Shown here piece after piece: positions 21,997-63,727 of a stretch of 64,000 nt of DNA. The stretch is from Sphaerolaimus hirsutus (Eukaryota; Nematoda; Chromadorea; Monhysterida; Sphaerolaimidae). The stretch is from assembly GCA_964036195.1 (NCBI GenBank), contig OZ038458.1:5146001-5210000 (forward strand), read 5' to 3'. Each line of letters starts with the position of its first letter. Position 1 is the first letter of the stretch. The position numbers were made by a program, and so were the translations under genes. The notes below the pieces were generated by a model. The model saw nothing but the letters and a program-made list of their open reading frames with translations, was not told the DNA's origin and did not search any database.

Positions 21997-22449
21997 CAGG
22001 GACGTATCCAGGATTTTTGAGCGGGGGGGGGGGGGCTGCTTGTTTACGGGGCCGGCGAACGGGGGGGGGGGGGGCTCAGCCCCCCCCCTAAATTTTTCCC
22101 TATATGGGTACGAATAGATGTTTTGGCGCTGCGCCATACAAAGGCGCCACGCCATGGCGCTATTGGCGTTGGCACCAGCGCCGGGAACCGCTTTATATGT
22201 ATGTAATTATGCATACATATACAGCGGAAAGTCGCAAAAATGTGTTCATTTCCAAGAATATTGGTTTAAAGGGACAAATCCGCTGAAAATACAATGCATG
22301 GGGAAGAAATTGCGCGCTTGCGCGCAAAATTTTTAAGAAACATCTAAAATTATATAGGAAAAGTCGCATTTTCCGGGACTTTTTAAGTCTCACCCCGGGA
22401 AGGGGGGGGGGCTGCAGCCCCCCCCCGCCCCCCCCTGGATACGTCCTTG
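21997..22449. mobile_element. hAT-type MITE, cagggacgtatccagg family, copy 2
   Basis: The ends CAGGGACGTATCCAGG and CCTGGATACGTCCTTG are inverted. GTTACATA is duplicated exactly at 21989-21996 and 22450-22457. The core has the same modules as copy 1 but in reverse orientation: gcgcca cluster, then 'gcatacatatacagcg', then 'gcgcgcttgcgcgc'. 453 bp. Confidence 0.93.
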
Positions 22450-25675: not shown

Positions 25676-25924
25676 GCACCCATCAAAATTGGCATTGTGC
25701 CAATGCAATCGCCTCAAACCGGCACAGCGCTCTACACTTTGCTAGTTCATCGATTTTATACCCACTCTGCGAGGAAAAACACATGGAATCGACTGGATAT
25801 TTGGCAAACAGCCAAAATGGAGAGAATTCGAGTTCTGGCGAAAAATTCAGCATGGCCACTATTCCGAAGGAGATGAGGCATATAAAAGAACAGCTTTTGT
25901 TGCACAGATTTGTTGTGTATGCCC
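25676..25924 (+). other. GEF exon 1 in window
   Basis: Exon 25676-25924, open throughout, ending in phase 1 at GTGAGT. It reads '...ILYPLCEEKHMESTGYLA...' and '...PKEMRHIKEQLLLHRFVVYA'. The entry acceptor is preceded by an 11-base C-run, as at other acceptors of this gene. If the ATG at 25783 is used, the protein begins MESTGYLANSQNG and the region before it is 5' UTR. No domain is recognised. Confidence 0.6.
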
Positions 25925-28900
25925 GTGAGTTTATTGGGTTTCGTCGGGATTTTTTATGTGTTTTTAATCATCTTTTTTATCGTGAACCTCGATATTGTCT
26001 CGTTATATGTTCTTTCTGACCCCTTCAAAGTTTTGCGATGCTCCTAAGTTCTATCCATCCACTGAAATTCACTCATTTACCGTATTTCGTCTAATAGGGG
26101 GGGGGGTCTCCTATTGAAGGGCGTCTGCAAATAGAACGTACACGTTTTTGACTTTTTTTGGGCCATGAAATAAATAGAAGGGCGGTCTCTCCGGGATTGT
26201 GCGAAATGCGTAAAAAATAACAAAATGTCAGCTGACACTGTTATTTAGTGGATTTGGTTCATTTATTTGGTGCATTTTGAAGATGAAGTATTGAGTGGAC
26301 TTTATGAATCGTCATTCTCTGTTACGTGACGCAACACTTTGAGAAACCTTGGCATAACTTGAAAAATTGTCTGAAAAAATGGCGAAAAAATAGAACGGCG
26401 GCTTCCAATAGAATGGCGGGTAAAAGTTGACGGAAGATAGAAGGGCGCCCTTCTATTAGAAAACATACGGTAGCTGTTAAAAAAATCGGACACCTTTTGA
26501 ACTTTCAAAGAATAGATTTTCAAATTCTTTAAAAGAAGAATATAAAAATCAAATTTATAATTCAATATTTTTAAAAACCCTTTCAGATGGTACAACGGAT
26601 GGAAATTCCCCCATAGTTGAAATCAGGCCGTCATGGCTACCCAACGAGCTTCGCCCGTCCGCCGCTGATGTATCCAGAGTATTGGCGTATATTTTTCGGA
26701 TTAATTCCAGGTGTGTATGGATTTCAGATTGCATGTTTGTACAGGTGTAAGGGGATCTTTAAATGCTTTAGAAGAAAATGTATGCTTTTGAGATTTGATG
26801 AATGTTTGGTAAGATCGATTTTGATTTGTCTTCATGCGTAGCTCGCGCTATATTTGCTCATTTGTCAAGCAATGGTCAATTTATTAGACCTAATTCGTGC
26901 ATTTGTGTGTTCAATGTGAGACATAAGGCGTGTATGTAAGGTGAAGTGCCTTGGCGGAGAATTTTTTATAATTTTTTGGTTTACCTGGATTTGACCACTG
27001 TTAAAGAGTAGTAATGTTCATTTTCTGCCGCTGAACTGTAAGTCATTATTTATTATGCAATAAAGGTGCACGGCTGACTTTCACGATTGATTATTCGGAT
27101 TAACTACCGTAAAACGACGAATACGTTGACGAAAGTTTGTAATTCAACTTCATGTCAACTTCGATGTGACTCAAATTTGAAAGCCAAAATTGAAAATCTG
27201 TCACAAAATGCAACCGCCAGCCAAGGTCATTTAATAAATACACGTGTATGTAATTCCCGCAAATCCATTTGAATGAAACCGCTGCATAAAATGCAATTTG
27301 AAACCGAAATCGTGACATGAAATGACCATTCTCATGGCCGTAATAACTGGATGAATGTTGCTATGGTGTTGGCACAGCGCCAAACAGCTCTATGGCGCCA
27401 CAGACACTGGATGTCAACTGGTTTCGGTGTGAACTCGATTTTAGCTCAATGTAGATCTCAAAAGACCCAGTTGACATCCGATAGAACACAATGTCAATTG
27501 GACTGACTAGTTTTCATTCACATTTTGAGTTGATATGTTGCGAAACCCAAATGGGTACAAATGCACATATTGATTCGTTTTCGAAATTACCGCATGTGCA
27601 CTTGAAAATTGTTTTTCTACCTAAATTGAGCTAAAATCGAGTTGACACCGAAACCAGTTGACATCCAGTGTGTTGCGTTTATGCCATTTTTGGCGCCTGG
27701 CTTTTTTCCCTGTGGCGCCACTGGCGCCAACGCCAAAAATCAGTGCTATACTCAACACTATTAATAATCTCTATCATTCGTTTGAAGTCATGCATTTGAA
27801 GCCAATTTCAGTTGTCTCATACTGACATATAATTAACTGCCAATTTTGAGTGATTTGTATATGAATTGACCTGGGGAGTGAAAGTAGAATTGGACTGCGT
27901 CATGATGTTTGGAATGTTAGAAAATAATTTTGATTTTTGCCAGGATTTTTTAAATCTGTTTGATTTTGGATTGGAATGTTTTTAAAGCGAAGTTTTTGGA
28001 TGCTTTTGGGTGTTATAATCGGATTTGAGAACAGTGTTCATTGTTCATTTTGTGGATTTTATCCTTTTGGTGTGTTGTCTCTGTTTATTTTCGGACAAAC
28101 TCTTTTTTTTTACGAATGCTTTGTCTTATTTTTGACCATAAAAAACGTTTTTCGATTTCACGCGACATTACTTTCGACCTTCGATCGCTTGCTCTGCTAA
28201 TTTCCATGGGAAAATTTGTCGAATTTCTATCACACATTGGCTCTTTTCTCAGTGGCTTACCATTCATCAACTTTGCCAGGTAAATGTTTGCTTATTTTTG
28301 CGGAAATACAATCATTTATACGAAACGTCAATGAAATTATCACGTTGTATCTAATCCAGATAAGCCGCATTTGAATGCGTCACTGATTTCAACGTAAATA
28401 CATACAAATTGCCTTCACAAATACAAATACAATGCAAAATGGCGCACTTTCACACTGGCACACGACACAAAGTGTAGAGATCGTGGTGCTTGACACTTGT
28501 GTGGCACTTTTCACTACTCAGACTTGACTCTTTGGGGAGGGGGTCCACCTGGTGCCACTCTCAGACACTGTAAAATGTCATAATTTCATGTAAAATGCGC
28601 TGTAAAATGTCATACTATTTACTTGTCAGTGATTGTCAAAACCCATTTTTGATCAATGATGTCCTGATTTTAGCTGATGTTTGTTGATGCAGTGAAAATT
28701 TTGCCAATGATATAAATAACTTTGGTCATTGAATTTGGACCCTGGTGGAATAACTTTTGGTCAGCTTCTATCCATGACTGTCCAGGTCTTATTGATACAT
28801 TTTTCCCCACTCATTGAAAAAAATTTGTGAGATTTTTTACCCCTTCAGTGCTTTAAATTCCATGCCAGACCACTGGCTGACACGTTTGTCACACAATTTT

Positions 28901-31900
28901 GGCATAATGTAATGATTCATGTGCACACTGATATTTATAAAAATATTTAGGTCATGTTTATTCCCAGTGTTGGTCACTTGATTTTCACGATGGCAGTTTT
29001 ATGACTGAGTATTTTATGTCCTCATTTTTGTAACTGACCAGGAAGTTTTTATCATGTTTTTATTCTCTTTCATATTGATATACATGTAGAAAGCATAGCA
29101 GGAACTAACTATTAAGCTAGTAAGCAAGTACACTTCATATTTCAATCAAATTTGTGCTAATCTTATTTTGCCATTTTAGCTAAAATTTTCATTGAAAATT
29201 TTAAATTACTAAGCCATGGAATCAAAATAGTAGAAATATACTGCCAGGAAACTGGCATTTAGTTTCACTTTTATGTACATTTATGGTATTTATAGGAGTT
29301 TTCACATGCCTGATTACTTGGCATTTGTGTATGTGCATTTTGACCGTGAATGGTGTGTGGAAATGATATAGAAATTGTATTACAGGGTGACCCAGAAAAG
29401 TAAAATATAAAAGTGTTTTTTGTTGTTGTTTGTTTTCACTGTGAAACTTTTGAGGTCCGAAAGTTTCGTTAAAAAACTTCACTAGCTTCGTTAGTTTCAC
29501 TTCTCGTTTCAAGTGCTTTATAGTGGTTTTTGTGTCATTGACAGGTGAAATAAGTCTGATTCATTTTCTTGGTTGCGTGATCATGAATGCTAGGCTTTTG
29601 TGTTGTAGTTCTATAGGCATTTTGTGCGTTAGGATAGTGTTTATCATTTATTTAGTTGCGTTGGAATTTCTTTCAAAGCTAGAATTTGTAGCAAGGTTTT
29701 TACTGATTTTTTCCTTTCACTTTTTCCGCATTTTTTTCGGGGAACTAGTTTTAAATAAATACCTGTACATCAATATATACATAGAAGCATTCATTTTCGT
29801 CTGAATTTAGGCGGTAATTTATTTTGATCTCAGCGGGGTTTCTGAAGAAAGAGTATCGTACGAATGACGGAAAATACTTTCTGTAAAACGAAAAAATGTT
29901 TTTTTACTTCTGAAACTAAACCCCTGACCCTTCTGCAATATTTTTCAATCAGTCAACAGATTTTAAAATCGAACAACCTTTGATTAACGAAAATTTTGTT
30001 CAAATGGAAAAATCGCCGGATGAACAAAACACTTTGAGGTGCATTTTTTGTTCCATCAAAAATATCCCATATTGTGTTATTCCTTTACACAGCACTGTGT
30101 TTTAAGTGTTGCCTTCGAAAATGAGTTGTGCAAACACATTTGTTCAATGTTAAACCCAGTTTTGTATGCCTGAGTAAGAATATGGCTGAAACAATGCACA
30201 TTATTAGTGCTGTACAAACATAGAATTGGTGCATTTAGACTTGAGTTTTCTATTTGGCCTATTTTTGTGTTCTTGAATTGCAAGATACTTTTTTATGGAT
30301 AAGAGAAAGCTAAAGTGTAAGAAGTTAAGTGCCTAACTCTGTCACTGCTTATATTGGTGACAAATATTCTTAAAATATTGATATTTTAAGCTTTAGATGG
30401 TGAGAATGCTTCCCAATTGCTCTTGTTTAATTACTATTTAAACATGACCATATTTTATCATTGCAGAATTCTTATAGCAACCCCCATTTTCCAGGCTGTC
30501 CCCCAACACACAGAAAATCCAGAACATAACATCATCAGTGTCACAAGATAATCAAACTGGAGGCAATAGCAAAAATGGCAACTCTCCTGGCCAGTTAACT
30601 GTTATTGTGGATGCAAGGGAACCTGCTGCAGATAGAAGTTTTGAAGTGCTGATAAAAGGAATTGCTACCCTCATGGTGAGTTGGCTTTGGCTCATTGCCA
30701 GTTTTTACTTCCATGATTTGTATTTTGAGTTTTATTTGTTTTGTGAGGTTGGGCAATTTCAGGGCAATTTCCTACTGACGATTTGTAAATAACGCATGCA
30801 ATGCAAATGTGGTGCCAGCCCACTGTTTGGTACTGTTGTTTTGAAATTTCGTGAGCAAATATACATCCACTGGCCTTTATGCAGTGCAGTACTAAAATTT
30901 TTCCACAAGTACCAATTTTTTTCTCGATTTTTCCCGTCTGCATAATCTAATCATACAACAACAATCCAAGTAAACATTTAGAATAAATCTACCATAAATA
31001 TTCCTAGCTTTATTTGAGAGAAAAATTATAATCATCCAAGCATAACATTACATTTGACACCTTTTGTGAGTTGTGTAAGCTGCTGTAAGCTATGAAAAAC
31101 GTGTTTTTGTCCACAGCTTGCTCTGAGATCATCCGTGTTTTGTTGTGTTGTCGTGTAAATATGTAGCGCCTGGATTTCAAGTGGCAATTTTAGGAAAAAT
31201 TAAAGTTGGTTTAGCGAAAGGTGATCCAGAAATTTGGTTGGGCGGTTTTTTTTCTTCAGTTTAAAGTTCGGTAGGAATAAGTGCTCTATGCATTTATGAC
31301 ACATTTGAGACATGATATATACCTATCGAGTTTTTGGTGTCGATATTTGAGGTTTTCAACATTTTCGATGTCTATGTTGGATCAAAAAATGATTGAAGAA
31401 ACAAGTTTCAAAGGTCTCAATATCTTGACCGAGTGCCTTCTCAGCACTTCTTGCACACAACATTCGAGTGTCACAAAAATCTGGCAACAAGCCAAGGCAG
31501 CCATTATTATAAAATGAGTATCATGACATATTGCAATGGTGCCATGCGAAAAATAGAGCCCATTGTATGGAATGTTATGTTTCCATCCAATTTTCAGTTA
31601 TGTTTTGTTTTTATGGGCCTAGCGTTTCACCTTCAATGAAAATTGCGCCCTTGGGAATATTTTGTGTGCTTGCAATTCAGGAACACACCTGTCTCCGTAG
31701 GTTTTTTTGTTGTACGCAATTGTGCAGCAGATTTGTCGCCTGGACGTCGTTCCAGGCTGGTAAGAATACAAACGTCAAAAATACATCGTGTTTTATAAAC
31801 TACTGTATATGGATTTGTTTACTATCCAAGTATTTCTTTTTTGTTGAATTTTTATTTCTTTTGGCCCAAGATGGAGTCAAGTATGCAAGTTGCAAGTAAA

Positions 31901-34900
31901 TATATGACCCCATGGATTTCTAGGCAGAAATCCGGCACAAAATTGTTCTTTTATTTTTCTGCGGCACTCAATATTTTTTGTTTTCCAAAGCTTTTCACTG
32001 TCTGCAAAAACTGGGTCCATGGCTTTGTGGTCTCGAAAGTTTGGTTGGAACTTTTCTGGGGGTCCTTTTCAAACAGCGACAATAAAACGTGAAAGTATTC
32101 AATGAAGTTACCCCCCCCCCCCTCATTTCCAAATCTGCAAGCAGTGAACATCACAGTTTAGAAATGTCATGCCCATTTTTGATTGCACACATCTCACAGC
32201 TGTTTGACAATTTTCGCCATTTTTATTCCTCTGGGAATCGCATGGAAAAGTGGGCATCCGTATTTTTGGGCATGAAAATTGACATTGAAAGCGATTTCAC
32301 GGTTCAGTGACACCGTTTTGAGACATTTTAGTTCCAATTGTACGCTGACAGAAAGTAACGATGGATTTATATTTATTTGTCATTTTACTTTTACTTTTTC
32401 GCTTTTTGAGTTTTTTTGGGCACAGAATGAGCACCCATAACCACTGCTTATGTATTTCTTTGCATTAGCAGAGTCGACTATGCAAAATCACGCATTTGTG
32501 TCTAGTGCAACAAATTTTCCTGATACCTTTTTTTGTGTGACAAATTTCAACATCTAAATATTTATTTACCTTCCGAAAAAATGATATGCTGGGTCCAAAG
32601 TGGTCCGTACAGTGACTGCAATAATGCACCTCTCCTCTACATATCCAAATGTGAATACAGGCTTTAGAATACACTTTAATGTTCAATTTTCATTTTTTAA
32701 TGAAATGCTTTAAACATGTGTTGATATTTTGCCGTGACGCCATCTGCCGCCCCATCTAAAAATGTTCAAATTCGATTTGGGGTTATATTTTCATGCAAAT
32801 TCAATCATAAAGCCATTTGTGCCACCCTAACCCGACATAACAAAATTTCACGCTTCGTTGTCGTTCGCATGCAATAAGCTAGCGCAATTTTGGGAATCGT
32901 GAAGCAACGAGAGTATAGCGATATTTAACCTACCCGATATTTAACCCATCGGTTGTAAAGCCAAAATACCTCGGTTGGTAAGCCAAAGTATGTCGTTAAA
33001 AAAGCCTCATTGTACTTTTGAAAGTGTGTCGATATTTAACCTAAAGTGTATCGTTAAAAAAGCCATTGTGTCGTTTCGTAAGCCGCAATACAATAATATA
33101 AATATAAATACGTACAATACAACCCATGTACACATAAATATGAAGAAAGAGGGAAATATAAGTGGCGGTGAGATGACAGGCATTTTTTGCAGGTAGATTG
33201 CAAATGACATATAGCAAATGACATTATTTATACTCCAGTTACTTTACACCCTGCACGCGTGGTTCCCGCTGGAAGCGTGCCAACGATTTTTTACGCATGC
33301 GATTCTCATGAAAAATTGATAAAAACCAGCTCTGTTATAACGCTAAACGTTAACTTATTCACAGCAATGATTTTTTTATCTTTTTTACAAAAACCGCATG
33401 CTTTATCATCATTGGCACGCTTCCAACGTGAGACATAAATGAGTGCGAGGGCAGAGTATCATGTACGCCAAGTATACGTACGTATTTACGTACGTAGGTG
33501 TTTTACTGCAGTGACATTTGACCCTGTGTGTGACCTGAGATTTGGTCACCGTGAGAATACATCTGACGCTTATGTATTGCCATGCAAATACAGTATTGGC
33601 TGGCATGTATAGGAGAATTTAAGTATGAACTGAATACAAGTATGAATAAGTAGAATTGCGGCGTAAATATGGCTTAAATTTCGACACAGTAGGGTTAAAT
33701 AACGACCGACTATGGGTGACGAAACGAATGAAAAATAAAAACACTTTGCGGCTTTACAAACGAGGTACTTTGGCTTTACAACCGACATAGTTTGGCTTAC
33801 GAATGGATGGGTTACGAACCGCTGTGGTTAAATATCGGGTTTTCCTCTGAAGCAACTGCTTTATGCATTTGCTTTGTTGTCAAAAATATGGGTTAGAATT
33901 TGGCTGATTTTCTCGATTTGTGACTGAATATTATGCGCCACTGCGCTGGGTATATTTTGTATTTAAAAATGATTAGGTACACTGATTAGAGATGACCAAA
34001 ATATTTGCAATACGGTTTTTTCATGATTTCGTCATCTGCATGTCTCGCTGCGGTTAAAAATTGACATTTCAACATTTCAGTGTTGAAAATGTATCAATTC
34101 TATGCGAAAATTCGGATTTTCAACCAAATGTGTCGGGTCAAATCGGATCAAGAGTGTGGAAATTATCACGGTGAAATGACGCGCCCCATTTGTGACGGCG
34201 GTGGAAAATTTCTGAAATTAGATAAATATTTACTTAACGCACTGATTTCAGGCTAAATAGTAATCAGCTGAATTCGAGCATGAAAAGTACTTTTTGAAAA
34301 TGGTGATATTCGTATGCGTCATATGCGATATTTTTCCGTCAATGACTCGATTGTTGTGACGCGATGACAAGCGGCAGCTAATAATCATTCAAAGAGCACA
34401 TGCATACCATCTTCTCACACAGTTGGCATGTGATTTTTGGATTTGGTGCTTCGTTTTTTATTGCCTGATGCCAACATTTTGTTTTGTTGCTATTTTGAAT
34501 ACTGGTGCCTCATATTATGTTACACCAGTTCCAGATCATGTAAAATGCCCTGTAAAATGTAAAATGTCATGCAAAGTGTCAAACGTAATGTAAAATATCA
34601 AACAACCAGTAAAAATAAAATAAAAATTAATATTTTCCGAAACATTTTACATGACTTTTGACACTTTCCATGACATTTGGCAAGAAAAGCCCCGCACACG
34701 CTAGTTGACATCGACACTAAATGTCAACTGGTTCCGTTCCTAATTCAAAGATTGCGTTTGAACGTTGTTCGTCCACTCGTCAGCAAACTTTGAATCGGGA
34801 TCAGCACCAGTTGACATTTGGTGTCGATGTCAACTAGCGTGTGTGGGCCCAAAGAGTCAATCTAGAGTCTCAAAATCTCAAACAACACCCCCCCCCCAAT

Positions 34901-52900: not shown

Positions 52901-55900
52901 GGGTGTTACACAAACGGAATTTTGATGTTCATCGTGATAAATCGTGTATTTATTATCATTGATTTACGTACTTGAAATTCCTGTTATGGTATTTGTGAAG
53001 TTCACGATTCTGCTACAATTAGTGCCGACGGCGTTCAATCGGGCGTGCACTGATACGCACCCGTGCCCGATACGCACATATGCCCGTTTTTTTCACTTGA
53101 CACTTTTTCTAGTGATTTTCAGATATGAGTAAAGTGAAAAAAAGTTGCGCAATGACATTAGTGAACTTTTTTCACTTCACTCATATCTGAAAATCACTTG
53201 AAAATGTGTCAAATGAAAAACAGTGAAAAATGGCAATTTTTTTCACTTGACACATTTTCAAGTGATTTTCAGATATGTGTGAAGTGAAAAAAGTTCACTA
53301 ATGTCATTGCGCAACTTTTTTTCACTTTACTAATATCTGAAAATCACTTGAAAAAGTGTCAAGTGAAAAAAACGGGCATATGTGCGTATCGGGCACGTGT
53401 GCGTATCAGGCCTGCCCCGTTCAATCCATCGCTGAGAATTTTTATTCGTTTTTTAAAGTTTATTTTAACGGGGAACATTTTCACTTTTATTTATTATTTG
53501 TATAGACTTACAGAAGTTAAAATTGAACCCCCCCCCCCCCCAAAAAAAAAAGTTGTGTCCCATTTATTTGAACTCAATTTTACATCTAACACACAGAGCG
53601 CTTCCTTGGTGCGATTGAGATTAGAAGAACGGCGTTATGAGCAATTTCTAGCTAAAGCTAGAGCGAGATTGGAGGCTGGCGAGTCACTGGCGGCTAATTA
53701 CGAAGCCATGTGCAATGCGGATGAGAGTTCCATTGAACAGGTGTGCGGAAAAGGAGACTAGATTCAATGACTTTTTTTGACGGTCATATTTTAACTGCGG
53801 ATCGTAAATACCTAGGTATTTACGGGTAGAAACCAGGCATTAGATTACATTTAGAATGTCATCTCAATTTAGATGTAAATTTTAGATGACATTTACGCAA
53901 TGACGTGGGCTCCCCGTAAAACACGTGTCGGTAAATTCAACATTCGTCAGGTGTTAATAACGTCACGATTTTGCTTGAACCCTGGATGTTTTCACACTGC
54001 ACCACCGAGATAAATTCAACCATAGATTCTACTCATTACAAATATTGTAATCAATATAATCATTGTCTTTTTTAAACCGTTTTTAAGAAAAAAATAACTT
54101 TTTTGTATCCCTGGTAACAATTTAAAAACCAATTTTGATACTTAAATTACAGGCCACCCTGCAGTGTTCCTCCATTTTGGACCCGGCGCGGCGGAAAATC
54201 TTGCGCGACACTTGGTCAACTTTGGTCGATCGATTAGAACAGTGCAGTCGGCAGTTGTACGAAGCCAGGGATAGGCTGGCTGACAATTTGGTCGCTTATC
54301 ACATGTTGGAGAAGGTTTGTTTAGGGGGGGGGGGGGTGAAGCCAAAAAAAAGTGGGTGGTGAAGGAATTTTTCGGGCTGTATTTTGATTGATCGATGTTT
54401 TCTTTGAAATTTTTTTACAACTGGTTTTGCGTCTAGTTAAAGATCCACAAATGTCAATTGTGCAAGCAGGCAATCTGGTGGCAGTTCTGCACCCTGTAAA
54501 GTGACAAATAAAAAACAATTAATACTGAACTTTTACACTTTGTATTACGTTTGACACTTTAAATGTAACTTTATAGGGTTCGGGACTGGTCCTTTAAAAA
54601 ATATTTTGAAGAAAGTACTTGCCATTTTCAAATTTTCAATTCACATTCACCGCAGGTGTACGACTGGGCCCTGAACAATGCGAAATATGGCACCAAATTG
54701 TCGATTTTGATCAGCACCGCCATGGACTCGCCAAAGTTTGCGGCGGAGAATTACCACCAAATGAAGGTTAATTTTAAGACATTAGAAATATAGAAATTAG
54801 ACATTTACAAATATTTATAAATTATTCAATCAAACCTTAATTGCCAACTAAAACCCCACATTTCACAACCTCAAACAAAACAAAACTCAGACGGCCGTGG
54901 ACAAGCAGCTACAATCCTATCCATCCGAAGAACTCCGTCAACTCCCGTCAGCAGCAGTTCGCGTAAAAAACGACCAGTTGACGCAACAAGTTGACGCGCT
55001 CACTTCGCGCTGCAACGACGCTGAACGCATGCTCCAGGTGCATAGGCGGAGAATTGAAGAAATCGGTGCGGGTTTGGGCAGTGAAATTGGGTTGGGAAAT
55101 GTTCAAAGTGGAGGGAATTTGTTGGAGCCGGCCGATGAGAAGTGCGATTTGGAGCCTGGAACTAGTAGTGAAAAGTGGTGAGCGAATTTTTGTGCGAATT
55201 TCCTCTTTCAAAATTTAATTTGAATAGTTGCCCACAGGTTTTTCAACGTAAAACGTCAAATCTAACTAAAAACCCTGCTACCGATACTTATCGCACACCC
55301 AGTTAAAAAAGGCAATTAAAACCCCCCATTCCAATTTCAGTTCGCCAAAAGCACGTTCAGTCAGTCCATCCCTATCCGGTGAATATGAGCAGCCGATCGG
55401 CAGGCAAACATCGGTACCCCCTCAAAATTGCTCCAGCGCCAGTGGCGCCAATGAGAATTTGGCGCAGAATGGCCAGGGCCAGGATGTTTGTTGGCGTAGG
55501 AGGAGTTATGCTGGTGTGTTTTGCATTTTTAGCTGGATTGGAACCACCTTTTTTGCTTTTGCGGCTATTCGGTGCCATGGGCAAAATTGAATTTTCGCTC
55601 TCAATCATACATTTTGTAACGAATAATGGCGCGTAGGGCCCACACATACTAGTTGACATCAAAATTTGTGTCAACTAAATTTTGGTTAATTATGTGATTT
55701 CAATTTTACTGTGTGATAGAGCATTATATCGTGCTAATGTTAATATTGTATCGTGACAATAATTTTCATTGTTCCTATGAAGTGTGATGTTTACAGAAAT
55801 TTGTGTTATTTAGTTGACATTCAGTTGACATTTATTCACGATGTCCACTAGTGTGTGTGGGCCCATAGCAGCTACATCCACGTCAGCCTCCAGAACGTTT

Positions 55901-58900
55901 CAAAACCCACCCTGACATCATTACACACAAACATAACTTTGCGTTTAACTCCGCCTTTTTATCTCCTCAACACCCCCACACACCCCCACAGGCCGCTCCC
56001 TCACCCCCTCCACATCCGCCAGTCTCACTTCGAACCCTCTGTTCCCCGCGCGCTACCTGCCCGCGGCCAACATGTTGCCCCAGTGCGTGTCCGGCGTACG
56101 GCGCTCCGCCATGCTCCAGGGCACCCTTCATGAGGAGGAGACTTGTGTTGGGGAAGGTGTGAATGGAGATTCCGTGGAGATGTGCGTGAAGGGTGGGAGT
56201 GATGTGATCACTGATGATTTGACTGATCAGGTAAGGGAGTTTTTTGAGGGGGTGGGTATTAGTTTTGGGGGTTTGAGCTGGCTGTTTCTGAGTGAGAAGT
56301 TTCAGAAAAATCTTCAGAAAGTCAGTTTTTGTCCGCCATTTATTTTCGCATCAAACAAAACATTCCTCGACAAATCAAATTATCATATGAGATCAACCAA
56401 AAATTTCACAACCTAACCCCCCCTCCCTCCCAGATCACCACCTGCATGTCGGAATCGACTCTAAAAAAGCGTCTGGCGTCACGCAAGGGGCCAGGCGCCA
56501 ACATGCCCCCTCCACCCCCCTTACCAACCGTTCACTCCGCCCCAAATAATGCACTTTTGGACAGACGCGTTCGCTTGGGGTCTGCCAGGGGTGCGGCGGA
56601 AAGGGTGAAAAGGCCTTTTCGCAAGTTTATGAAACGGTCCATTACGCTGGATGATGTGGGCAATAAGCTTAGACCGGCTAGTGTGAGCACTGCCAGTGCG
56701 TGCAGGTGAGTGAAGTGGGGAGGTTTTGGCAGATTTTGTTGAATAATTTCCAATGTGTTGATTTTGGGTGGTTAAATTTTCGTGGATATACTCGGCGGAC
56801 AGCAAAGTATGCGCAGAATCGTACCATAATTTGTGAATAAAATCTTGTGATAAATTTCTTAATAAATTATTCCATAGTAAAAACGAAATATTATGGTTAA
56901 AAAACTGTATAATTTTTGGTTCATTATTCAAATGGGTTATGGTAGGTTTCCATACTAAGTTTGATACCTACCGAGTATAGTCATTATTCACGAAAAAATG
57001 TCAATTCGCTTCAGTGACAAATCTACGGCAATCAAATTTTATTTGTGACGCGCCCTGCATAATCCATTTTCAATTTTAGGCTGCCGTCTGTGGGCGAATC
57101 GGCACACCCGAGACAGCTACACGGACGCACGGAAAGCCTCAGCAGCTTGGCCAGGTTTGTGTTGACTTGGGTTGAATTGGGCAACTAAAACTTGGATATG
57201 TGCCAAAAATATATTTCCATACCAACGATTCACAATAAAAAATGTTAAAAATAAATATTAAAACATATATGGGTCGACATCAACATTCGTGTCAACTAGG
57301 GTGTCAACAAATTTTTTTTAACGGAAAACGGAAACGGAAAAATGTTTGCACTTGCCGGAAAACGGAAACGGAAAAATATTTGCACTTGCCGGAAAACGGA
57401 AAAAAAATTGCCTGCGGAAAACGGAAAGAATTTTGCCTGCGGAAACGGAAAATTTTTTCACTTGCCAGAAAACGGAAACGGAAATTTTTTTGCACTTGCC
57501 GGATAACGGAACGGAAAACGGAAAAAAATTGCCTGCGGAACCGGAAAACGGAAATTTGACATGCTAGTGTCAACTAAATTTTGGTTAGTCACATGATTTA
57601 ACTCTACTATGTGATAGAGTACAGTTAATTTTATATATGAACACTACATATGAGCACTACAATGTAGTGACACTTAATTTACTTTGTCCCTGTTAAGTGT
57701 GATGCTTAAAAAAAGTTGTTGCATTATTAAGTTGACATTTGATTCCGATGTCAACTAGTACGTGTGGACCCTATCCAACCACAACGTAAACTCCGCCCCT
57801 TTCCAGTCTGGACGAGGTGGCCTCCCGTTCCAGCCAATCATCGTCGGCCTACACGCCGCACCAGTTGATGCCTAGCGCCAGCGACGCCGTAAATCAAAAT
57901 TTATCGAATAGCACGTTTGCGGATTCGAGCGGGTCGCCGGGAAGCGCCGCTTTTGTCTTTACACCGGTCACGTTTGAGGGCAGCGATTTGAGGCCTAGGT
58001 TAGATTGCGCGGGGTTCTTTTTTTGCACTTTTTTGTCACAATTTGAGTGGGATTGACGTGCTAGCGTAAAAAAATTGTCAAGGCTAGGGTTGGCCGATGT
58101 TTTTTTTTAAACGTTTTTTTTTTAAACGTTGTTTTTTTTTTAAAAACATGACGTCCGAAATGTTTTTTTTTTAAAAACATCGGCCGAAATTTTTAGTACT
58201 AAGCACTGGGTATTTTGCAAAATTTTTGCGCGCAAGCGCGCAATTTCACACACAAATTGACATTGGTGGTTGTTTTCATTGGTTTTGTTGCATTTTTAGT
58301 ATCAAAACATCCATTTCTATGTGCTACCATGGGTGAATAAGCCGACATATGTTGCTGTAATATATAATGTTGAGGTAATGTGCTTCCATGTACCTCCACA
58401 GTGTGTAACTTCACTCCCAAAGTCACAACCTCCTTTTATAACCTTGTTTGATCACCATTCCGTGCCAAACTTTACCTGAAGTCACGAACATTCGACTATA
58501 AGGCGATATACGAACGATATGTCGACGAAAAATGGATATTTTTGACACAAATCACCACTTATAATGCTATCCCATGGCTCCACAGCCATTATATGGTCAT
58601 ATTTAACATCACAGAGTATTGCCAGTGTCTGATATACCTATATATGTTGACACTAGGTCATATCTGGGAGCTTTTAAAAAAACGTTGTTGTTTTTAAAAA
58701 ACATCGAGTTAAAAAAAACGTTTTTTTTCCAACCCTAGTCAAGGCCCTTGGGGGCAAGCCCAGATGCTGTGAAATGTAAAATTGTGTGCGAAGTGTCGGA
58801 AGTCCTGAAAAATGCACTGTAAAATGTCAAATTTCATGCAAAGTGTCAAAAGTCATGTAAAATTCCCCGTAAAATGGCAATAAACGAAGTGGCAATATTC

Positions 58901-61900
58901 GCATGGCATTTAACAGTTTACAGCGTCTGTGAGTGGCACCTGTCACTGTCTAATTGCGTTTTCGTTTTAGTCGGGGGTCTCCCAAAATATTCCAATATAA
59001 TTAAAGTTGTAAAAATGCCATTTTTTAATAAAAATACTAGTTTTATTTCAGGTCGCCACCGGCGAGCGCGAGCCCCGAGGAACGAATGCGGTACATGATA
59101 ATCGATGAACTTATGCAGACCGAGTTGAGCTACGTGAGCGCCATCGAATACGTTATCAAGGCGAGTGATAAAATACCTAGTGATAAAACGTGACAAAAGT
59201 CATGAAAAATGCGTGTAAAGTGTCAAAAAAATTATAATTTTTTACCTGACGTTCGACGTTTTATTCGGCGTAATTTTAATACAGGGTCTAGGATGTTAAT
59301 GATTTAATGAAATTAATGATTTCTATTGGCAGCAATGTGTGAATCCGAAATGCAAAATCAAAACTATGCTCAATGCGTTTTCAATCTAAGTGGCGGTTGA
59401 TACTTTAGCTAGCAGTAAAAATTTTGTAATTGCAGGTTCCCATATGCAAATGTTGGTTTGTAAGAAAAAACCCTTGCTCCGCGAAATTCTGTCAACTGTT
59501 AGAAATTCTGAATGTCTACATGAAATGTTGTCGTTTGTAAAATGTTTTCTCATAAATTTGTCAACACGAAATGTTTTAACAATTCCCAATTATAACGACC
59601 TCACTTTTTCAGTACTACCTGCCCGAGTTGTCGCGACCGGATTTGCCCGCTGAACTGCGTTGTCAGCGAGCTGCTATTTTTGGTAATTTGGAGCGCATTT
59701 ACGATTTTCACGTGCGCGAATTTCTACCCGCCCTAAGAGATGTCGTCAGGAGAAACTACGCGAGCAGGGCACAGGTAATTTGACAGTTTTTACTTTTTTG
59801 GGTGTGAGAATTGACGCTGTGCCGCCGTCCATTTTCATCTGAAATCCTTCAAAACGTATTTTTTTGTTGGGATATATCCTGCTTTTTAAATAAAGGGGTA
59901 CCACACTGTAAAAATTAAAAATGTTGTAAAAGAACAAATATGGTGCGAGTATTCAATTCGTTCATGTACACATGAAATCACATCGATAAACAAATTATAA
60001 TACCACCTACCTAAATCAATTTCCACTTTCAGTGCGGCACGCCATCCTGTTCGTGCATCAGCGCCAATCACAACGCCGCCAGCATGCGGCCCAATTGCGA
60101 CTGCGGCGACCTATCGCAGCTGTCCGCCGATGTGGCCACCTGCTTTCTACAGCACAGGCATAGATTTCACCTGTACGCGCTGTATAATAAGAACAAGCCC
60201 AGATGTGACCAGATTATGGCGCAGTGTGGCGCCGTCTTTTTTAAGGTTAGATAAGATTGTATTTATCAACATTTTTCCTCAACAAAACTTTTTGCACTTT
60301 CACTTTCATATCTTATGAACATATAACTCAACTCAAAAATTCACATTTCTTGTGAACGCCCAACACAAAAAAAAACACAAAAGCACTCAAAATTTCAGAC
60401 GAAACAGCTGACCCTGGGCGACCGTCTGGACCTATCTTCCTATCTGCTAAAACCGGTTCAAAGAATGGGCAAATACGCACTTTTACTGGGCCAATTGGCC
60501 AAGTCGGCCGCCAGCGGCGTCCACTCCACCAAGCACAACGAGCTGGACGACGGAAATTACGAGAGCGAAAATACGGCTGAATTGCTGAAGAGGGCTCAAG
60601 AAATGGTCACTTTTCAGTTGAGACACGGCAATGATTTATTGGTCGGTTTTGACGTGTTTTTGAGTCGTTGTGAAGTGACACATTTGAAAATGATCTCGAT
60701 TTTCAGGCAATGGATTTGATTCGCGGCTGCGACGTGAATTTGAAAGAGCAGGGCACGCTGTTGCGTCAGGATGAATTTACTGTAGAGGAAAGAAAATCGT
60801 CCAAATTGGGGTATGTCCTTTTCACAACCGGTCCATTTCACAATCTGTCCATTTCACAACCTGTTCATTTCACAAGCTTTTCATTTTCAGCCAAAACATT
60901 TCGTGGCGACGGAACAAGTGTTCAGTGCGACGCGTTTTCCTGTTTGAACATTTGGTGCTGTTTGCCAAGCCGAAACCCAGGAAGGGTTTGGTGCAGCAGC
61001 CGGGATCGTACAGTGCGAGATTATTGGCTGATACCTATGAGTATAAGCATAGTATGAAGGTGAGTATTTAGGGGGAATTGATATTTGAATGGGTTGGAAG
61101 AGGCATGTCAACTTGAAAATGAAATCTTACCAAAGCTCAACTAGAAATCTGTCCAATAATCAACTAGAAATCTTACCACAACTCAATGTGAAAACAGTGT
61201 GATATGGATATTTTTGTAGACATCGTGCCCCCATCACCATCAACGGTGCACAGATTTTTAGCGTAAATTTCGAAATGTCATGTGATGTTTTATTTTATTT
61301 ATATTGCTTTATTCTTTTTATGTAAATAATTCCAATTTGGCGGAATTGGTAAAGTGCGGTATTATAAAATCTTAAGTGACTGGCTCCTTCATTTTGCTGG
61401 GCTTAACTGATTGGGTCTGCCGTTTCATTCCTGGACCCTGTAAAATGCCAAAAAATGTTTATTTTTACTAGTCGTTTGACTTTTTCAGGACATTTTACAT
61501 GACATTTGAGATTTTGCATGATATTTGAGATTTTACAGAGCTACATTTTACATAATCTCTGAGTAGCCCCACGGGTGAATCTCATCAGCAAAATCTCCTC
61601 CCTACCCATTAACCCCCCTAACCCCCCCCCCCAGACTTCGGACATGGGTCTAACGGAATCAGTAGACGAGCAGCCGTGCAAATTCGAGCTGTGGTTCCGC
61701 CGGCACACGTCCAGCACCCGCTACGTGCTCACCGCGCAGACGGCCGCAGTGAGACACGCTTGGCTTTTGGACGTGGGCCAAATTCTGTGGAGACAGGCTA
61801 TTAGGAATAGGGGTGAGTGATGGGGGGTTGCAAGTTGTGGGACGGGTTTTTAAGGGGTGGTGTTCAACGGCCCTACTTTTGAAAAAAGCGCTTTGCTTTT

Positions 61901-63727
61901 TTCCAAAAAAATGTTCAGAGATATCAAAATGTGCCCGTTTTAAACTAAAAAAAGCGTAAAAAGCGTTTAAAAAGCGCTGGCCATCCCTCCTAGTAATAGG
62001 TAGTTATGGATCAGTTTTGTAAAATTAAATTCGTAAAAAAATATTTGTAACATTCGATCATTTCACCACCCTTATCAGTTATATTTACAATATTCCCCCT
62101 CCCCACTTATTTACCCCCCCCCCCCCCCCCCGCAGAACAACGTCAATGCGAGCTGACAGCGATGGGTTTCGATCGGTCTTCGTGCCTCGATTTGAAGGCT
62201 TCAGCCGACCGGATAGAAGACAGGGCTGTGCCCGTGCCGGCTGATAGAAGGCAACCCAGTGTATGCGCCGAAAGTGGTTGGTTCCCAGTGAATGGCTGCG
62301 TGGCCTGTTTTCACTAATCCTACAAAGTGCCCTGGGGGCAGTCCCAGACACTGTAAAATGTAAAATGTCATGGAAAGTGTCAAAAGTCATGGAAAATGCC
62401 CTGCAAAATGGCGAATCGGTTAAATGGCAAAATGGCGACGCGCATTTTACAGAGTCTGGGGCTGGCACCTGGCAGATGTCAGTATTCCGGCAAATTTCCC
62501 AATCTGGCGACAGAACAGGTGTTTTGTAGATTTGGATCCCCTTTTTCTGTTTTATTCGCTTTTTATAGATGGTAAATCGCTCCTCCGGAGGTATAGGTAA
62601 ATAGCTGAAAAATTTGGGGGAGGGGGTTCGCGGGGGTTAAATATATAGGCTTTTCCAAGGTATAGAAGGACAAAAAGAGAGAAAAATCGCTGAAAAAAGC
62701 TGAAAAAGAGAGAAAAAGGCTGAAAATGGTCAATGGAACACATGAAATAGCGATTTTGAAGGTGAAAAACTATAAAACGGTATGAAAACTCTCTCACTGT
62801 TGATCCACGCAGATTGCCAATCATCGAGCAACAATCACAACAACCAGCGCCAGCTCAGCCACACGCAATCCAGCCCGTCGATACAATCGCACGGTCGCAA
62901 TCACAATCGCAACCCCCCTCCCCCCACGATGGCGCACCCCCCACCCAATTGCCGACCCCATTCTCTGGTCAGTTCGGAGGCGTCGTCCAGTTCAAATTCG
63001 TCGGCTAGCTGCAAGTCGCACCTGAGCGGCACCAGCACCGAGGGCAACAGCCGCGACGGGGGAAGTAGTGGGCATGGAAGTTTGGCTGGCAGCAGTACGG
63101 CTAATGGGGGTGGGGGGAGGAGGTCCTGCGGCACTTCGTTGAGTCTCGGTGGGTCGAAGGGGGTTGGGTTATTTTGGTGACTTTTTGGTTTTAGTGATTT
63201 TTTTTGTCGAGGCGTCGTTGTTTGTATGTTTGTTAGCGCGTCCGACTCACGTTCCTGAATTGTGCGATTGAACTTTGAATTTTATAATTTTTAGCGCCGC
63301 GCGCGAGCAGCCAGTAAATAGCGAAATCGCGACGTAAGTAGACTTCTGAAGTGTGGGCACTTGCTTTCTGCACCCTTCAACAAATCTCCGATTAATCACC
63401 TAAAATATACCCCCTCCATCAGAATCAGGCGTCAGCGGCGACATGACGCCGGTGCGCAATAGCGCCGATCGCCCGCTAGACACAGTTTTTGAACACAATA
63501 ACGACGCGAATGGACCCGGTACTGGCACGGCGGTGTCCAACGCGATGCCCAACCTGAACGGGTCCGGCGTGGTGTTGAACGGCGCCAACGGCGGCGGACC
63601 CGATGACACGCTGGTCGCTGTGGGTGCGCAGATCGACTCCGCTGGTTTGCAGAGTATTTTGGCTGAGAAGAATGCCGTTACTGTGAGTGTGGCGGGGTTT
63701 GAGTTGTATGGGGAGCAATCTAAATAG
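25676..63727 (+). CDS. RhoGEF of PLEKHG4 (puratrophin-1)/ARHGEF40/Quattro type, about 1640 residues
   Basis: Predicted cytoplasmic guanine nucleotide exchange factor for Rho GTPases, with a CRAL-TRIO-like N-terminus, spectrin-like helices, DH and PH domains. The model has 27 exons; 25 of its 26 introns are GT-AG and one is GC-AG, and all phases fit. Exon coordinates are given in the segment entries below. Residue numbers there count from the first in-window codon. The stop is TAG at 63725-63727. The 5' end is uncertain. The first exon has an acceptor (C11 then 'attcag') at 25675, which suggests an upstream exon, but the ATG at 25783 could instead be the start. Within Dbl-type GEFs the closest matches by eye are PLEKHG4/4B: 'PELSRPDLPAELR..R..IFGNLERIYDFH', 'LYALYNKNKPRCD' and the post-PH 'MGFD...LDLKAS...DRAV'. 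Dbs/Mcf2 and Trio share the domain order but fit these motifs less well. Confidence 0.88.
26080..26470. mobile_element. TA-flanked MITE in GEF intron 1
   Basis: The ends CCGTATTTCGTCTAATAGGG and CTATTAGAAAACATACGG are inverted, flanked by TA (26078-26079 and 26471-26472). Inside, 'gaagggcg' and 'aatagaac' units recur in both orientations. It is a separate subfamily sharing the CCGTATTT terminus. It makes up 391 of the 662 bases of the intron. Confidence 0.82.
26711..30494 (+). other. GEF intron 2
   Basis: A 3.8-kb intron. It contains a gcgcca-type repeat at 27365-27400 and 27680-27745 that is interrupted by the inverted-repeat element 27404-27673. Otherwise it is AT-rich sequence without a gene I can support; 'gacactgtaaaatgtcat' repeats lie at about 28560-28612. 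Confidence 0.55.
27404..27673. mobile_element. MITE with acactggatgtcaactgg ends, nested in a gcgcca repeat
   Basis: The left end acactggatgtcaactggtt and the right end aaccagttgacatccagtgt are inverted, and complementarity continues through 'ctcgattttagctcaat' and 'attgagctaaaatcgag'. It lies between two halves of a gcgcca-rich repeat, so it is the younger insertion. It is related in its 'gttgacat' motif to the gggcccacacac family. Confidence 0.82.
32930..33842. mobile_element. inverted-repeat element with 'cccgatatttaacc' ends
   Basis: The left end acccgatatttaacccatcg and the right end cggttaaatatcgggt type terminus are inverted. Subterminal modules 'ggttgtaaagccaaaatacc' and 'aagccaaagtatgtcg' on the left are matched in inverted form on the right ('tactttggctttacaaccga', 'acatagtttggcttacg'). 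About 910 bp with no long frame. Confidence 0.7.
34689..34850. mobile_element. MITE, gggcccacacac family, short form
   Basis: The left end gccccgcacacgctagttga and the right end caactagcgtgtgtgggccc are inverted. The interior is 'aaatgtcaactggttccg', 'ttgcgtttgaacg' and 'gcaccagttgacatttggtg'. Copies of this 155-160-bp form lie at 38291, 48842 and 49036. Confidence 0.82.
37207..37680 (-). other. 157-codon open frame in GEF intron 3, unrecognised
   Basis: A frame on the minus strand reading MNGTWQ..., with 'FTSEKFVAFFHCQILESCH' and 'KCCKIIPGKSNQNRMPCVCV'. It is the longest frame in the repeat-rich part of the window. It is antisense to the GEF transcript and its start lies in a G-run. Amino-acid composition looks protein-like (nine Cys, mixed hydrophobics), but I recognise no family, and it may be a captured fragment or chance. 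Confidence 0.25.
38291..38440. mobile_element. MITE, gggcccacacac family, short form, left arm shortened
   Basis: The right end gtcaactagcgtgtgtgggc is intact. The left end reads 'ggccctacacacgcaccaaatg', missing the 'tagttgacat' segment present in other copies. The interior is the same as 34689-34850. Confidence 0.78.
38727..38943. mobile_element. TA-flanked MITE, CCGTATT family, 217 bp
   Basis: The ends CCGTATTTAATC and GAGAAATACGG are inverted, flanked by TA at 38725-38726 and 38944-38945. The interior differs from the C-rich copies, so only the terminal module is shared. Confidence 0.7.
39433..39842. mobile_element. near-perfect 410-bp palindromic MITE
   Basis: The left end aaagctccgttgacactgcg and the right end cgcagtgtaaacgtagcttt are inverted and flanked by T/A. 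The two arms of about 190 bp pair through 'cttgtgccgacaattcgaaa', 'aagttccatatctgcaagaa', 'caaatt(t)gcagataaatcgt' and 'cgttccagagttataagc'. Only a short spacer near 39635 is unpaired. Confidence 0.88.
40588..40735. repeat. GGGATC-type low-complexity block in GEF intron 4
   Basis: Repeats of 'gatcgggatcgggattg' with 'ttttggagatcggg', like the blocks at 10.5-12.2 kb. It lies about 180 bases after exon 4. Confidence 0.65.
41052..41312. mobile_element. MITE with tatactcggcggac ends, copy 2
   Basis: The left end tatactcggcggaccgcatg and the right end tttgctgtccgccgagtata are inverted. The interior differs from copies 1 and 3. It lies in GEF intron 4 (40409-43079). Confidence 0.75.
43314..43484. 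mobile_element. short inverted-repeat element at start of GEF intron 5
   Basis: The ends attccgcgagtggagaagta and ttacctctccacctgcggaat are inverted, with 'ttttgaagtga' and 'tcacttcaaaa' inside. It is 171 bp and starts about 58 bases after the donor at 43257. No clear duplication is seen. Confidence 0.6.
44338..44780. mobile_element. hAT-type MITE, cagggacgtatccagg family, copy 3
   Basis: The ends CAGGGACGTAGCCAGG and CCTGGCTACGTCCTTG are inverted. GTTGGGGC is duplicated exactly at 44330-44337 and 44781-44788. The core has the gcgccatggcgc cluster, 'aggcatatacagcg' and 'gcgcgcttgtgcgc', as in copy 2. 443 bp. Confidence 0.93.
45805..46235. repeat. 'gatagatagctg' composite repeat with G-runs
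   Basis: Contains 'aatatataggctttttcagg', 'gtatagaaggtagaaatagg' and 'gtagatagatacctgagg' followed by G9, shared with 23.4-23.8 and 62.5-62.8 kb. The ends are not defined. Confidence 0.55.
48842..49004. mobile_element. MITE, gggcccacacac family, short form
   Basis: The left end gccccccccacacgcttgtt type terminus and the right end gtcaactagcgtgtgtggcc are inverted. The interior has 'aaatgtcaactggttcca' and 'gcaccagttgacatttggtg'. Confidence 0.8.
49036..49197. mobile_element. MITE, gggcccacacac family, short form, 32 bp from the previous copy
   Basis: The left end ccctacacacgctagttgac and the right end gtcaactagcgtgtgtgggc are inverted. The interior is an inverted pair of 'aaatgtcaactggttccgat' and 'atcggaaccagttgacattt'. 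Confidence 0.83.
50667..50833. mobile_element. hAT-type MITE, TAGTGATG ends, gcgcca-rich
   Basis: The ends TAGTGATGTGCAAGCGCCA and TGGCGCCATTCCATCACTA are inverted and match the 4248-4456 element. The interior contains two tandem copies of 'aatggcgccacgacgccctt'. No clear 8-bp duplication remains. Confidence 0.75.
53041..53417. mobile_element. palindromic element with 9-bp TSD in GEF intron 8
   Basis: CGTTCAATC occurs at 53032-53040 and 53418-53426. The ends 'gggcgtgcactgatacgcac' and 'gtgcgtatcaggcctgccc' are inverted. Inner arms 'gatacgcacatatgcccg' / 'cgggcatatgtgcgtatc' and repeated 'ttttcacttgacac...gtgattttcagatatg' units make nested hairpins throughout. A 9-bp duplication suggests a Mutator-like origin. 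Confidence 0.82.
55636..55864. mobile_element. MITE, gggcccacacac family, long form, in GEF intron 13
   Basis: The left end gggcccacacatactagttg and the right end ccactagtgtgtgtgggccc are inverted. The interior has 'aattttggttaattatgtga' and 'gtgtgatagagcat', as in 9117-9357. It makes up 229 of the 478 bases of the intron. Confidence 0.85.
56787..56978. mobile_element. MITE with tatactcggcggac ends, copy 3, in GEF intron 15
   Basis: The left end tatactcggcggacagcaaa and the right end 'gatacctaccgagtata' are inverted. The interior matches copy 1 (19839-20033) closely through 'agtatgcgcagaatcgtacc' and 'gggttatggtaggtttccat'. It makes up 192 of 374 intron bases. Confidence 0.82.
57268..57771. 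mobile_element. MITE, gggcccacacac family, with an internal ggaaaacgg tandem array
   Basis: The ends 'gggtcgacatcaacattcgtgtc' type and 'gatgtcaactagtacgtgtgga' type are inverted. The family core 'aaattttggttagtcacatg' and 'gtgatagagtacag' lies on the right side. An array of 'ggaaaacggaaacggaaaaa' with 'ttgcacttgcc' or 'ttgcctgc' spacers (57315-57560, six or more units) occupies the left part. It fills 504 of the 652 bases of intron 16. Confidence 0.75.
58085..58737. mobile_element. hAT-type MITE, copy 2 of a near-identical pair, in GEF intron 17
   Basis: The ends tagggttggccgatgttttt and tttttttccaaccctag are inverted. GTCAAGGC is duplicated exactly at 58077-58084 and 58738-58745. It is nearly identical to 14972-15648 over the core ('acaaattgacattgg', 'gccgacatatgttgctgt'), with length differences confined mainly to the T/A runs. 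Confidence 0.93.
58746..58945. repeat. 'gtaaaatgtca' dispersed repeat
   Basis: Begins 'cttgggggcaagcccagatgctgtgaaatg' type sequence and runs through several 'catgtaaaatgtcaaa' units to 'cagcgtctgtgagtggcacc'. The same arrangement is at 62328-62475 ('cagacactgtaaaatg' to 'cattttacagagtctggggc'), with fragments at 300-460, 28560, 34540, 52425 and 61435-61570. Confidence 0.6.
59052..60810 (+). other. GEF exons 18-22: DH (RhoGEF) domain
   Basis: Exons 59052-59160, 59613-59774, 60033-60245, 60399-60641 and 60707-60810 (about residues 995-1271). CR1: 'IIDELMQTELSYVSAIEYVI'. Middle: 'IFGNLERIYDFHVREFLPAL' and 'FLQHRHRFHLYALYNKNKPR'. CR3: 'SSYLLKPVQRMGKYALLLGQ', the helix that contacts the GTPase. 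The Glu in CR1 (QTELSYV) needed for exchange in Dbl proteins is present. Exon 20 begins with a Cys-rich insert of about 25 residues (CGTPSCSC...NCDCGD) not expected in human relatives. Intron 18 (59161-59612) starts with GC instead of GT. Confidence 0.92.
60891..61812 (+). other. GEF exons 23-24: PH domain
   Basis: Exons 60891-61059 and 61635-61812 (about residues 1272-1387). 'VRRVFLFEHLVLFAKPK' is the beta3-beta4 motif typical of PH domains after DH. 'YEYKHSMK', 'MGLTESV', 'KFELWFRR' and the C-terminal helix 'AVRHAWLLDVGQILWRQAIR', with the conserved Trp, complete the fold. PH domains in Dbl proteins assist exchange and membrane contact. Confidence 0.9.
62136..63727 (+). other. GEF exons 25-27: post-PH motif and Ser/Asn/Gly-rich tail
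   Basis: Exons 62136-62258, 62813-63148 and 63423-63727 (about residues 1388-1641). Exon 25 has 'MGFDRSSCLDLKASADRIED' and 'RAVPVP', matching the 'MG...LDIKPS...DRA' motif that follows the PH domain in PLEKHG4 and Solo. Exon 26 is Ser/Asn/Gln/His-rich, then Gly/Ser-rich, likely disordered. The donor of exon 25 was placed at 62259 (A|GTGTAT) because the alternative phase hits a stop in exon 26. The last exon ends '...YGEQSK' and stop. Confidence 0.82.
62520..62800. repeat. 'gatagatagctgaaa'-type repeat in GEF intron 25
   Basis: Contains 'ttttgtagatttggatccc', 'aaatcgctcctccggaggta', G-runs, 'aatatataggcttttccaag' and 'gtatagaaggacaaaa', shared with 23.4-23.8 and 45.8-46.2 kb. Together with the gtaaaatgtca repeat at 62328-62475 it fills most of this 554-bp intron. 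Confidence 0.6.

Follow-up and report, generated by a model that had tools for sequence, protein, structure and literature searches.

Gene-level, mirror-like base composition of intron ends in a nematode genome and its possible relation to splicing

In one class of genes of Sphaerolaimus hirsutus, introns are polar: their 5' ends are G/T-rich and their 3' ends C/A-rich, each end being a near mirror image of the other in composition. The two ends are coupled at the level of whole genes, the tract before the acceptor is richer in C at the expense of T, and within genes no coupling between the ends of one intron was detectable. Our tentative explanation, to which we give slightly less than even confidence, is that introns have a compositional polarity which is set for the whole gene and coupled to splicing, and to which homopolymer runs are added.

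Results

Runs of G and C at the intron ends of a RhoGEF gene

The window, a stretch of 64,000 nucleotides, comes from an assembly that totals 348 Mb in 762 contigs. Its + strand contains a gene that encodes, by profile match, a RhoGEF domain followed by a PH domain (59052-61812; PF00621, 3.7e-27; PF22697, 3.7e-27; seven exons joined by eye). An apparent GC donor, ATCAAG/GCGAGT, lies within the RhoGEF domain at 59161. A preliminary description of this gene (the GEF gene) had claimed C-runs close to acceptors and G-runs just after donors. Every one of the C-runs was present, and so were all of the G-runs, although the positions of some of the latter were off by a base or two. In our intron models, all on the + strand, C7 (43062-43068) lies by the acceptor of intron 40409-43079, the 5' end of which is T-rich; intron 43257-47765 has G5 (43268-43272) by its donor and C12 (47746-47757) by its acceptor, and intron 47906-52132 has C12 (52115-52126) by its acceptor. 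Further runs are found in introns 56231-56433 (G5 at 56248-56252 and at 56267-56271, C7 at 56417-56423), 61813-62135 (G6 at 61822-61827, C18 at 62114-62131) and 63149-63422 (G5 at 63159-63163, C5 at 63410-63414), and in the short intron of 163 nt at 55178-55340 (C6 at 55322-55327). Two introns have a G-run at the donor and a 3' end without a C-run, namely 52346-52715 (G6, 52350-52355) and 54315-54655 (G13, 54324-54336), the G13 being absent from the preliminary description. Also absent from it was a pair of runs in intron 52834-53596, where T9G13 (52882-52903, with G13 at 52891-52903) and C14A10 (53528-53551, with C14 at 53528-53541) lie at mirrored places and together make an almost perfect inverted repeat. 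Upstream of these introns, C11 (25659-25669) exists ahead of an acceptor-like site at 25675/25676, the exon at 25676 being only a candidate.

Intron 61060-61634 contains TTAGGGGG (61068-61075), C6 (61613-61618) and C11 (61622-61632), the last immediately 5' of the acceptor AG. The exact complementarity that had been pointed out between TTAGGGGG and CCCCCTAA (61614-61621) exists, but as a match it is not unusual: an 8-nt exact complement was found between the own ends of 2 of the 16 window introns and in 26% of mismatched end pairs from the GEF gene, and the match is ordinary for that reason.

Counted over the window, a run of at least five C (C5+) occurred within the last 60 nt of 9 of the 16 introns of at least 200 nt, compared with 12 of 452 interior 60-nt windows (p = 1e-9), and a run of at least five G (G5+) within the first 60 nt of 8 of the 16, compared with 13 of 452 (p = 4e-8). 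Of about 25 introns 19 were used, those with unclear ends being omitted. The exons around the first two of these (26711-40282) are only putatively part of the GEF gene, and from 40409 onward the counts were 8/14 for C5+ and 8/14 for G5+. The neighbouring Phospholipase B gene (PF04916; - strand, 534-3981; introns of 66, 74 and 832 nt placed by eye) had been said to lack the runs, and indeed none of six acceptor-like sites picked by eye had C5+ within the 60 nt before it. The contrast between the two genes fits the division of genes into two classes described below.

The runs extend beyond the GEF gene

A genome-wide sample of introns was built from exon searches for CCT chaperonins, myosins, kinesins, adaptins and class I tRNA synthetases. 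We took 44 gene stretches from the genome, 42 of which gave introns passing the score cut. Introns were modelled from profile continuity, reading frame, donor score and GT-AG ends, while runs and pyrimidine tracts were ignored. All 142 contiguous neighbouring pairs of profile matches were modelled and 133 passed the cut, the allowed profile gap being 15 positions in the first two batches and 24 in the third; 33 further neighbouring pairs, in which the profile positions were not contiguous, were left out, as were two match rows inside the taken stretches, one overlapping and one with five stops. Together with the 19 window introns, the 133 introns from the 42 stretches give a total of 152, 119 of them at least 200 nt long. 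The sampled genes were picked for exons close together, and the introns are models rather than transcript-derived. In a CCT gene (L040), open frames of 708 and 1050 codons surround separate exons, a sign that in-frame stops may be missing from some of the introns.

Among the 119 introns of at least 200 nt, C5+ was present in the last 60 nt of 33, compared with 72 of 1221 interior windows (p = 3e-12), and G5+ in the first 60 nt of 27, compared with 68 of 1221 (p = 6e-9). The opposite placement was rare (C5+ at 5' ends, 3/119; G5+ at 3' ends, 1/119). Without the window introns, C5+ was found at 24 of 103 3' ends and G5+ at 19 of 103 5' ends. The runs at intron ends are real and extend beyond the GEF gene: both kinds stand above the interior background, and the C-runs are not as common elsewhere in introns; equal frequency there was one part of what the preliminary description had named as speaking against it. 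We also searched the whole genome for the donor pattern CAGGTGAGT with a G6 or C6 no more than 25 nt further on. The forward counts were 41 and 19, the reversed-pattern controls 20 and 23 and the reverse-strand counts 92 and 41; this evidence is weak because the reverse-strand places repeat one site and because one repeat family supplies many of the listed G6 places.

Intron ends mirror each other in composition at the level of genes

In the first batch of genome introns (61 of 200 nt or longer), positions +6 to +20 at the 5' end had a composition of G 0.33, T 0.40, A 0.17 and C 0.11, positions -40 to -20 on the 3' side one of A 0.35, C 0.28, G 0.12 and T 0.25, and the intron middle was balanced. 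In many genes introns start G/T-rich and end C/A-rich, and the two ends are therefore complementary. As the gradient fades to A=T and C=G inside the introns, there is no constant transcription skew. We classed genes with a polarity above 0.4 as polar (82 introns from 25 genes, against 37 non-polar introns from 18 genes). Between 20 and 80 nt from the ends of the 82 polar introns, the 5' profile stayed within 0.07 of the complemented 3' profile, in a class whose profile is sharpened by selection because it was set post hoc on the very same ends; the first genome batch, which is unselected, shows the same mirror. Both profiles of the polar introns were at background by about 80-110 nt, and C was even higher in the final 20 nt. 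The skew peaks at intron ends and decays to zero inside, as in splicing-coupled strand asymmetry.

Gene means of 5' and 3' end polarity were correlated (rho = 0.70, p = 1e-5, 31 genes), with the same rho of 0.70 over 30 genes when the window gene was left out. Within genes, the correlation between the skews of the two ends was -0.01 (95% interval -0.22 to 0.21, n = 81), or 0.04 at n = 107, and the 5' polarity of an intron was correlated with the 3' ends of its gene's other introns (rho = 0.39) no less closely than with its own 3' end (0.31). Complementary composition is a property of whole genes. Polarity is lower in genes where more of the introns are under 200 nt long (rho = -0.66, p = 1e-5, 36 genes); it showed no relation to interior G+C or interior run density and no dependence on intron length. 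Three similar myosin genes (L041, L042 and L043) have numerous introns of 58-135 nt, and their end polarity is slight or absent.

The two ends of one intron show no significant preference for each other within genes

The paired G- and C-runs that had been expected in the same intron were in excess when ends were shuffled freely, and this excess was lost within genes. G5+ and C5+ occurred together in 14 introns, against 7.5 expected under free shuffling (p = 0.0017), and runs of k = 6 in 9, against 3.3 (p = 0.0003). With shuffling inside genes, the expectations were 13.0 for the 14 cases (p = 0.38) and 7.5 for the 9 cases at k = 6 (p = 0.21), and for k = 6 in 100 nt 10 cases were found where 7.7 were expected (p = 0.10). 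Predicted pairing gave the same result over 101 introns: an intron's own ends were slightly better than freely swapped ends (p = 0.003-0.008 for ends of 30, 45 and 60 nt) and had no advantage over ends swapped within the gene (p = 0.28-0.45). With 90-nt ends of the first 61 introns, within-gene swaps gave p = 0.22 for energy and p = 0.059 for the longest exact match, the latter being the closest to an exception. The proposal that each intron pairs its own two ends is not upheld, as the excess vanishes on within-gene swaps and the within-gene skew correlation is near zero, and such pairing is rejected as a demonstrated fact. Complementary runs, even exact matches, should not be taken as evidence of intron-specific pairing before ends have been swapped within genes.

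Acceptors of polar introns carry a C-rich tract of normal pyrimidine content

At -20 to -4, the pyrimidine fraction of polar introns was 0.67, that of non-polar introns 0.64 and that of short introns 0.60. The pyrimidine excess of the 82 polar introns is carried by C, as in C-rich polypyrimidine tracts (C 0.44 and T 0.23, against C 0.27 and T 0.38 in the 37 non-polar introns). Stronger predicted pairing went with more pyrimidines (rho of energy with content -0.29, p = 0.009), and predicted pairing was unrelated to donor score (p = 0.35) and to intron length (p = 0.74). The suggestion that pairing stands in for a polypyrimidine tract finds no support in these data, since pyrimidines near acceptors are normal and the strongly pairing introns have more of them. 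A weak tract offset by pairing was also considered and rejected, the sign having come out opposite.

Repeats in the window and in the genome

Many runs elsewhere in the window sit in repeats; at acceptors, an origin of the C-runs as mere repeat debris was rejected. Dispersed repeats at 21242-22435 and 44364-44766 have ends like cagggacgtatccaggatttttgagc followed by a G-run, as well as G-run/C-run palindromes. These ends look like terminal inverted repeats of a putative DNA transposon family, and the repeats contain many long G- and C-runs outside genes. Tandem or clustered units such as CCTCGAAATACCCCCC at 10085-10498, 3273-3367 and 18646-18670 are a source of C-runs unrelated to splicing. 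Poly-G follows gatagat-like words and T-runs at 15845-15856, 23702-23714 and 52891-52903; these sites, including the G13 of intron 52834-53596, are perhaps one repeat family. The same intron holds, at 53050-53409, an inverted repeat with 176-nt arms that are 96% complementary and 8 nt apart. TTAGGC is the nematode telomere repeat. Tandem TTAGGC is abundant in this genome (11965 forward and 5421 reverse overlapping pattern matches), with arrays deep inside chromosome-size contigs (G000:C1:28243494, C2:5287004) as well as near ends, and five copies of TTAGG gave no match in the genome on either strand. COX1 can be read without stops under several mitochondrial codes, and the invertebrate code yields the conserved residues.

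Discussion

The intron polarity described here is most likely an unusually strong, mirror-like version of a composition regime coupled to splicing. One gene class, with few or no short introns, has the first ~80 nt of its introns G/U-rich and the last ~80 nt A/C-rich, and G- and C-homopolymers, which are common in the genome, occur at the end that favours their base and rarely at the other. Selection for splicing may act on each end separately, with a strength fixed by the gene. The 5' sequence could provide G/U-rich intronic enhancers 3' of the donor; upstream of the acceptor, selection may maintain a C-rich tract in place of a U-rich one, together with an A/C-rich stretch, and U2AF and/or poly-C-binding KH proteins might recognize these sequences. 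The runs would be lengthened by slippage. Complementarity would then be a by-product of separate selection on the two ends, from which a weak, partner-unspecific pairing may result and possibly be put to use. The enrichment and orientation of the runs, the fading of the gradient inside introns, the correlation of end polarity at gene level and its absence within genes, the unchanged pyrimidine fraction, the missing G/C switch at fourfold exon sites, the fall of polarity with the share of short introns and the precedent of C-rich tracts bound by alphaCP/PCBP all count for this explanation. Several observations count against it: a near mirror in four bases with similar decay would be unexpected from two independent factor systems, as would 5' words that match the reverse-complemented 3' words more closely than base composition accounts for; in some polar introns the own ends pair better than dinucleotide shuffles; and third codon positions overall do shift along the exons of polar genes, if only slightly more than along those of non-polar genes. 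A strong mirror composition found in one gene class and absent from another offers a natural contrast for asking which of end pairing, factor binding and mutation drives it, and bears on how long introns without strong sequence signals are recognized.

The near mirror in all four bases would also arise if G/U-rich 5' ends and A/C-rich 3' ends were selected for a weak duplex joining the splice sites, with the 5' and 3' ends of a gene interchangeable as partners. This is the idea of the preliminary description minus its partner specificity, and we regard it as possible though falling well short of probable. A more elaborate form of it, a gene-wide, partner-unspecific pairing code with a G/U lexicon at the 5' end, its reverse complement at the 3' end, closure of the intron by proximity, poly-G and poly-C as the strongest words and genes rich in short introns lacking the code, strikes us as rather unlikely. 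The 4-mers of 5' ends match the reverse-complemented 4-mers of 3' ends beyond base composition (partial r 0.60 with a gene bootstrap of 0.32-0.59; a dinucleotide model lowers it to 0.35, with a bootstrap of 0.06-0.42), compared with 0.08-0.20 for inner regions and 0.13 for non-polar genes, but the match is largely not antiparallel-specific, as complemented words that were not reversed gave 0.46; with interior word usage removed, the orientation-specific partial r was 0.22-0.25 (p = 0.23, 0.09 and 0.05 at k = 3, 4 and 5). Similarly, reversing the 3' ends weakens their predicted pairing with 5' ends by 1.04 kcal/mol (random partners), but the reversal also costs interior segments 0.55 kcal/mol. 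The predicted own-end duplex is stronger in polar than in non-polar introns (-22.9 vs -16.6 kcal/mol, p = 6e-4), a difference that partly reflects the choice of polar genes, and own ends exceed dinucleotide-shuffled ends (z < -1.64) in 12 of 82 polar and 0 of 37 non-polar introns, yet the mean z over all polar introns is merely -0.27 (p = 0.14). The lengths of the longest G-run and the longest C-run are correlated (rho = 0.45, p = 0.014, 29 introns). Mirror positions of the runs are conspicuous in a few of the strongest introns only, such as the CCT intron of L070 (G11 centred at +16, C15 centred at -14), that of L068 (G12 at +13, C9 at -12) and window intron 52834-53596 (G13 at +64, C14 at -62); over all 29 introns with both runs the positions show no symmetry (rho = 0.05, p = 0.78). 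Moreover, neither pairing nor run co-occurrence is in significant excess inside genes, and predicted pairing is indifferent to intron length and donor score and increases rather than decreases where the pyrimidine tract is good.

The exons of the GEF gene look C/A-rich at their start and G/T-rich at their end, which prompted a different reading, in which a mutational or repair asymmetry at the exons of certain genes (e.g., germline-active ones) makes left flanks A/C-rich and right flanks G/T-rich without any role of splicing. The pattern is strand-symmetric around exons and of gene level, and third codon positions overall go from C-rich to G/T-rich along exons, as this reading would have it. 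From the first to the last exon quarter, however, fourfold sites of polar genes (46 exons; 337 and 254 sites) go from C 0.32 to 0.34 and from G 0.42 to 0.35, while the intron just past the junctions is strongly skewed in the same genes and intron interiors are without skew. T at fourfold sites rises about equally in both classes (0.12 to 0.22 in polar, 0.16 to 0.25 in non-polar genes). Confinement to introns would fit the missing G/C switch at fourfold sites but not the third positions overall, which change along the exons of either gene class (in polar genes, C 0.38 to 0.23, T 0.11 to 0.26 and G 0.35 to 0.40; in non-polar genes, C 0.33 to 0.24, T 0.14 to 0.24 and G 0.37 to 0.36). Because fourfold sites show no G/C switch, we demoted the exon-centred DNA process to a rival, and an improbable one; judging from the exons, the class-specific polarity seems to begin at the splice site, an indication of splicing that leaves some doubt. 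We consider it very improbable that the complementary ends are terminal inverted repeats of introners or other insertions. Several repeat families here bear long G- or C-runs and some introns have long inverted arms, but intron ends, judged by eye, share common words rather than a family-like consensus, the runs adjoin acceptors in unrelated genes, and the gradient is compositional and gene-wide.

The splicing-coupled polarity favoured here can be set beside several known systems. Intronic G-run enhancers exist near 5' splice sites. The G-runs of this genome resemble them in lying within tens of bases of the donor and differ in being linked, at the level of the gene, to C-runs at the acceptor. 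Touchon et al. in 2004 reportedly found skews that were maximal at intron extremities and faded inward, and ascribed them to splicing. As in that asymmetry, the skew is greatest at intron ends and fades inward; unlike in it, the sign flips between the ends, with near-mirror 5' and 3' compositions, the A/C-rich 3' side exceeds the pyrimidine tract, the effect spans ~80 nt, and genes differ strongly. Splicing-coupled strand asymmetry of introns is also discussed in PMC10946897, which cites that study. We found no report of poly-G/poly-C complementary intron ends among the titles and abstract starts of the open-licence literature, and neither PMC10809524 nor PMC13326754, the latter on tunicate splicing, offered anything relevant.

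In zebrafish (AC)m-(GU)n introns (Lin et al., 2016), as outlined in a section of PMC9024468, structure replaces U2AF2. The introns described here likewise have complementary low-complexity sequence at both ends. They do not show AC on the donor side and GU on the acceptor side, since by that outline the order is reversed here, with G/U at the 5' and A/C at the 3' end. Furthermore, no dinucleotide repeats are among their top words, the tract is not weakened, the pairing is predicted, and an advantage of own ends appears only against free swaps and not within genes. C-rich polypyrimidine tracts are bound by alphaCP/PCBP, possibly with U2AF65, according to PMC4797308. A C-rich tract directly 5' of acceptors is a feature shared with the alphaCP/PCBP-dependent tracts described there; in contrast to that system, which concerns mammalian cassette exons, the tract in this genome involves whole genes and includes homopolymers up to C18.
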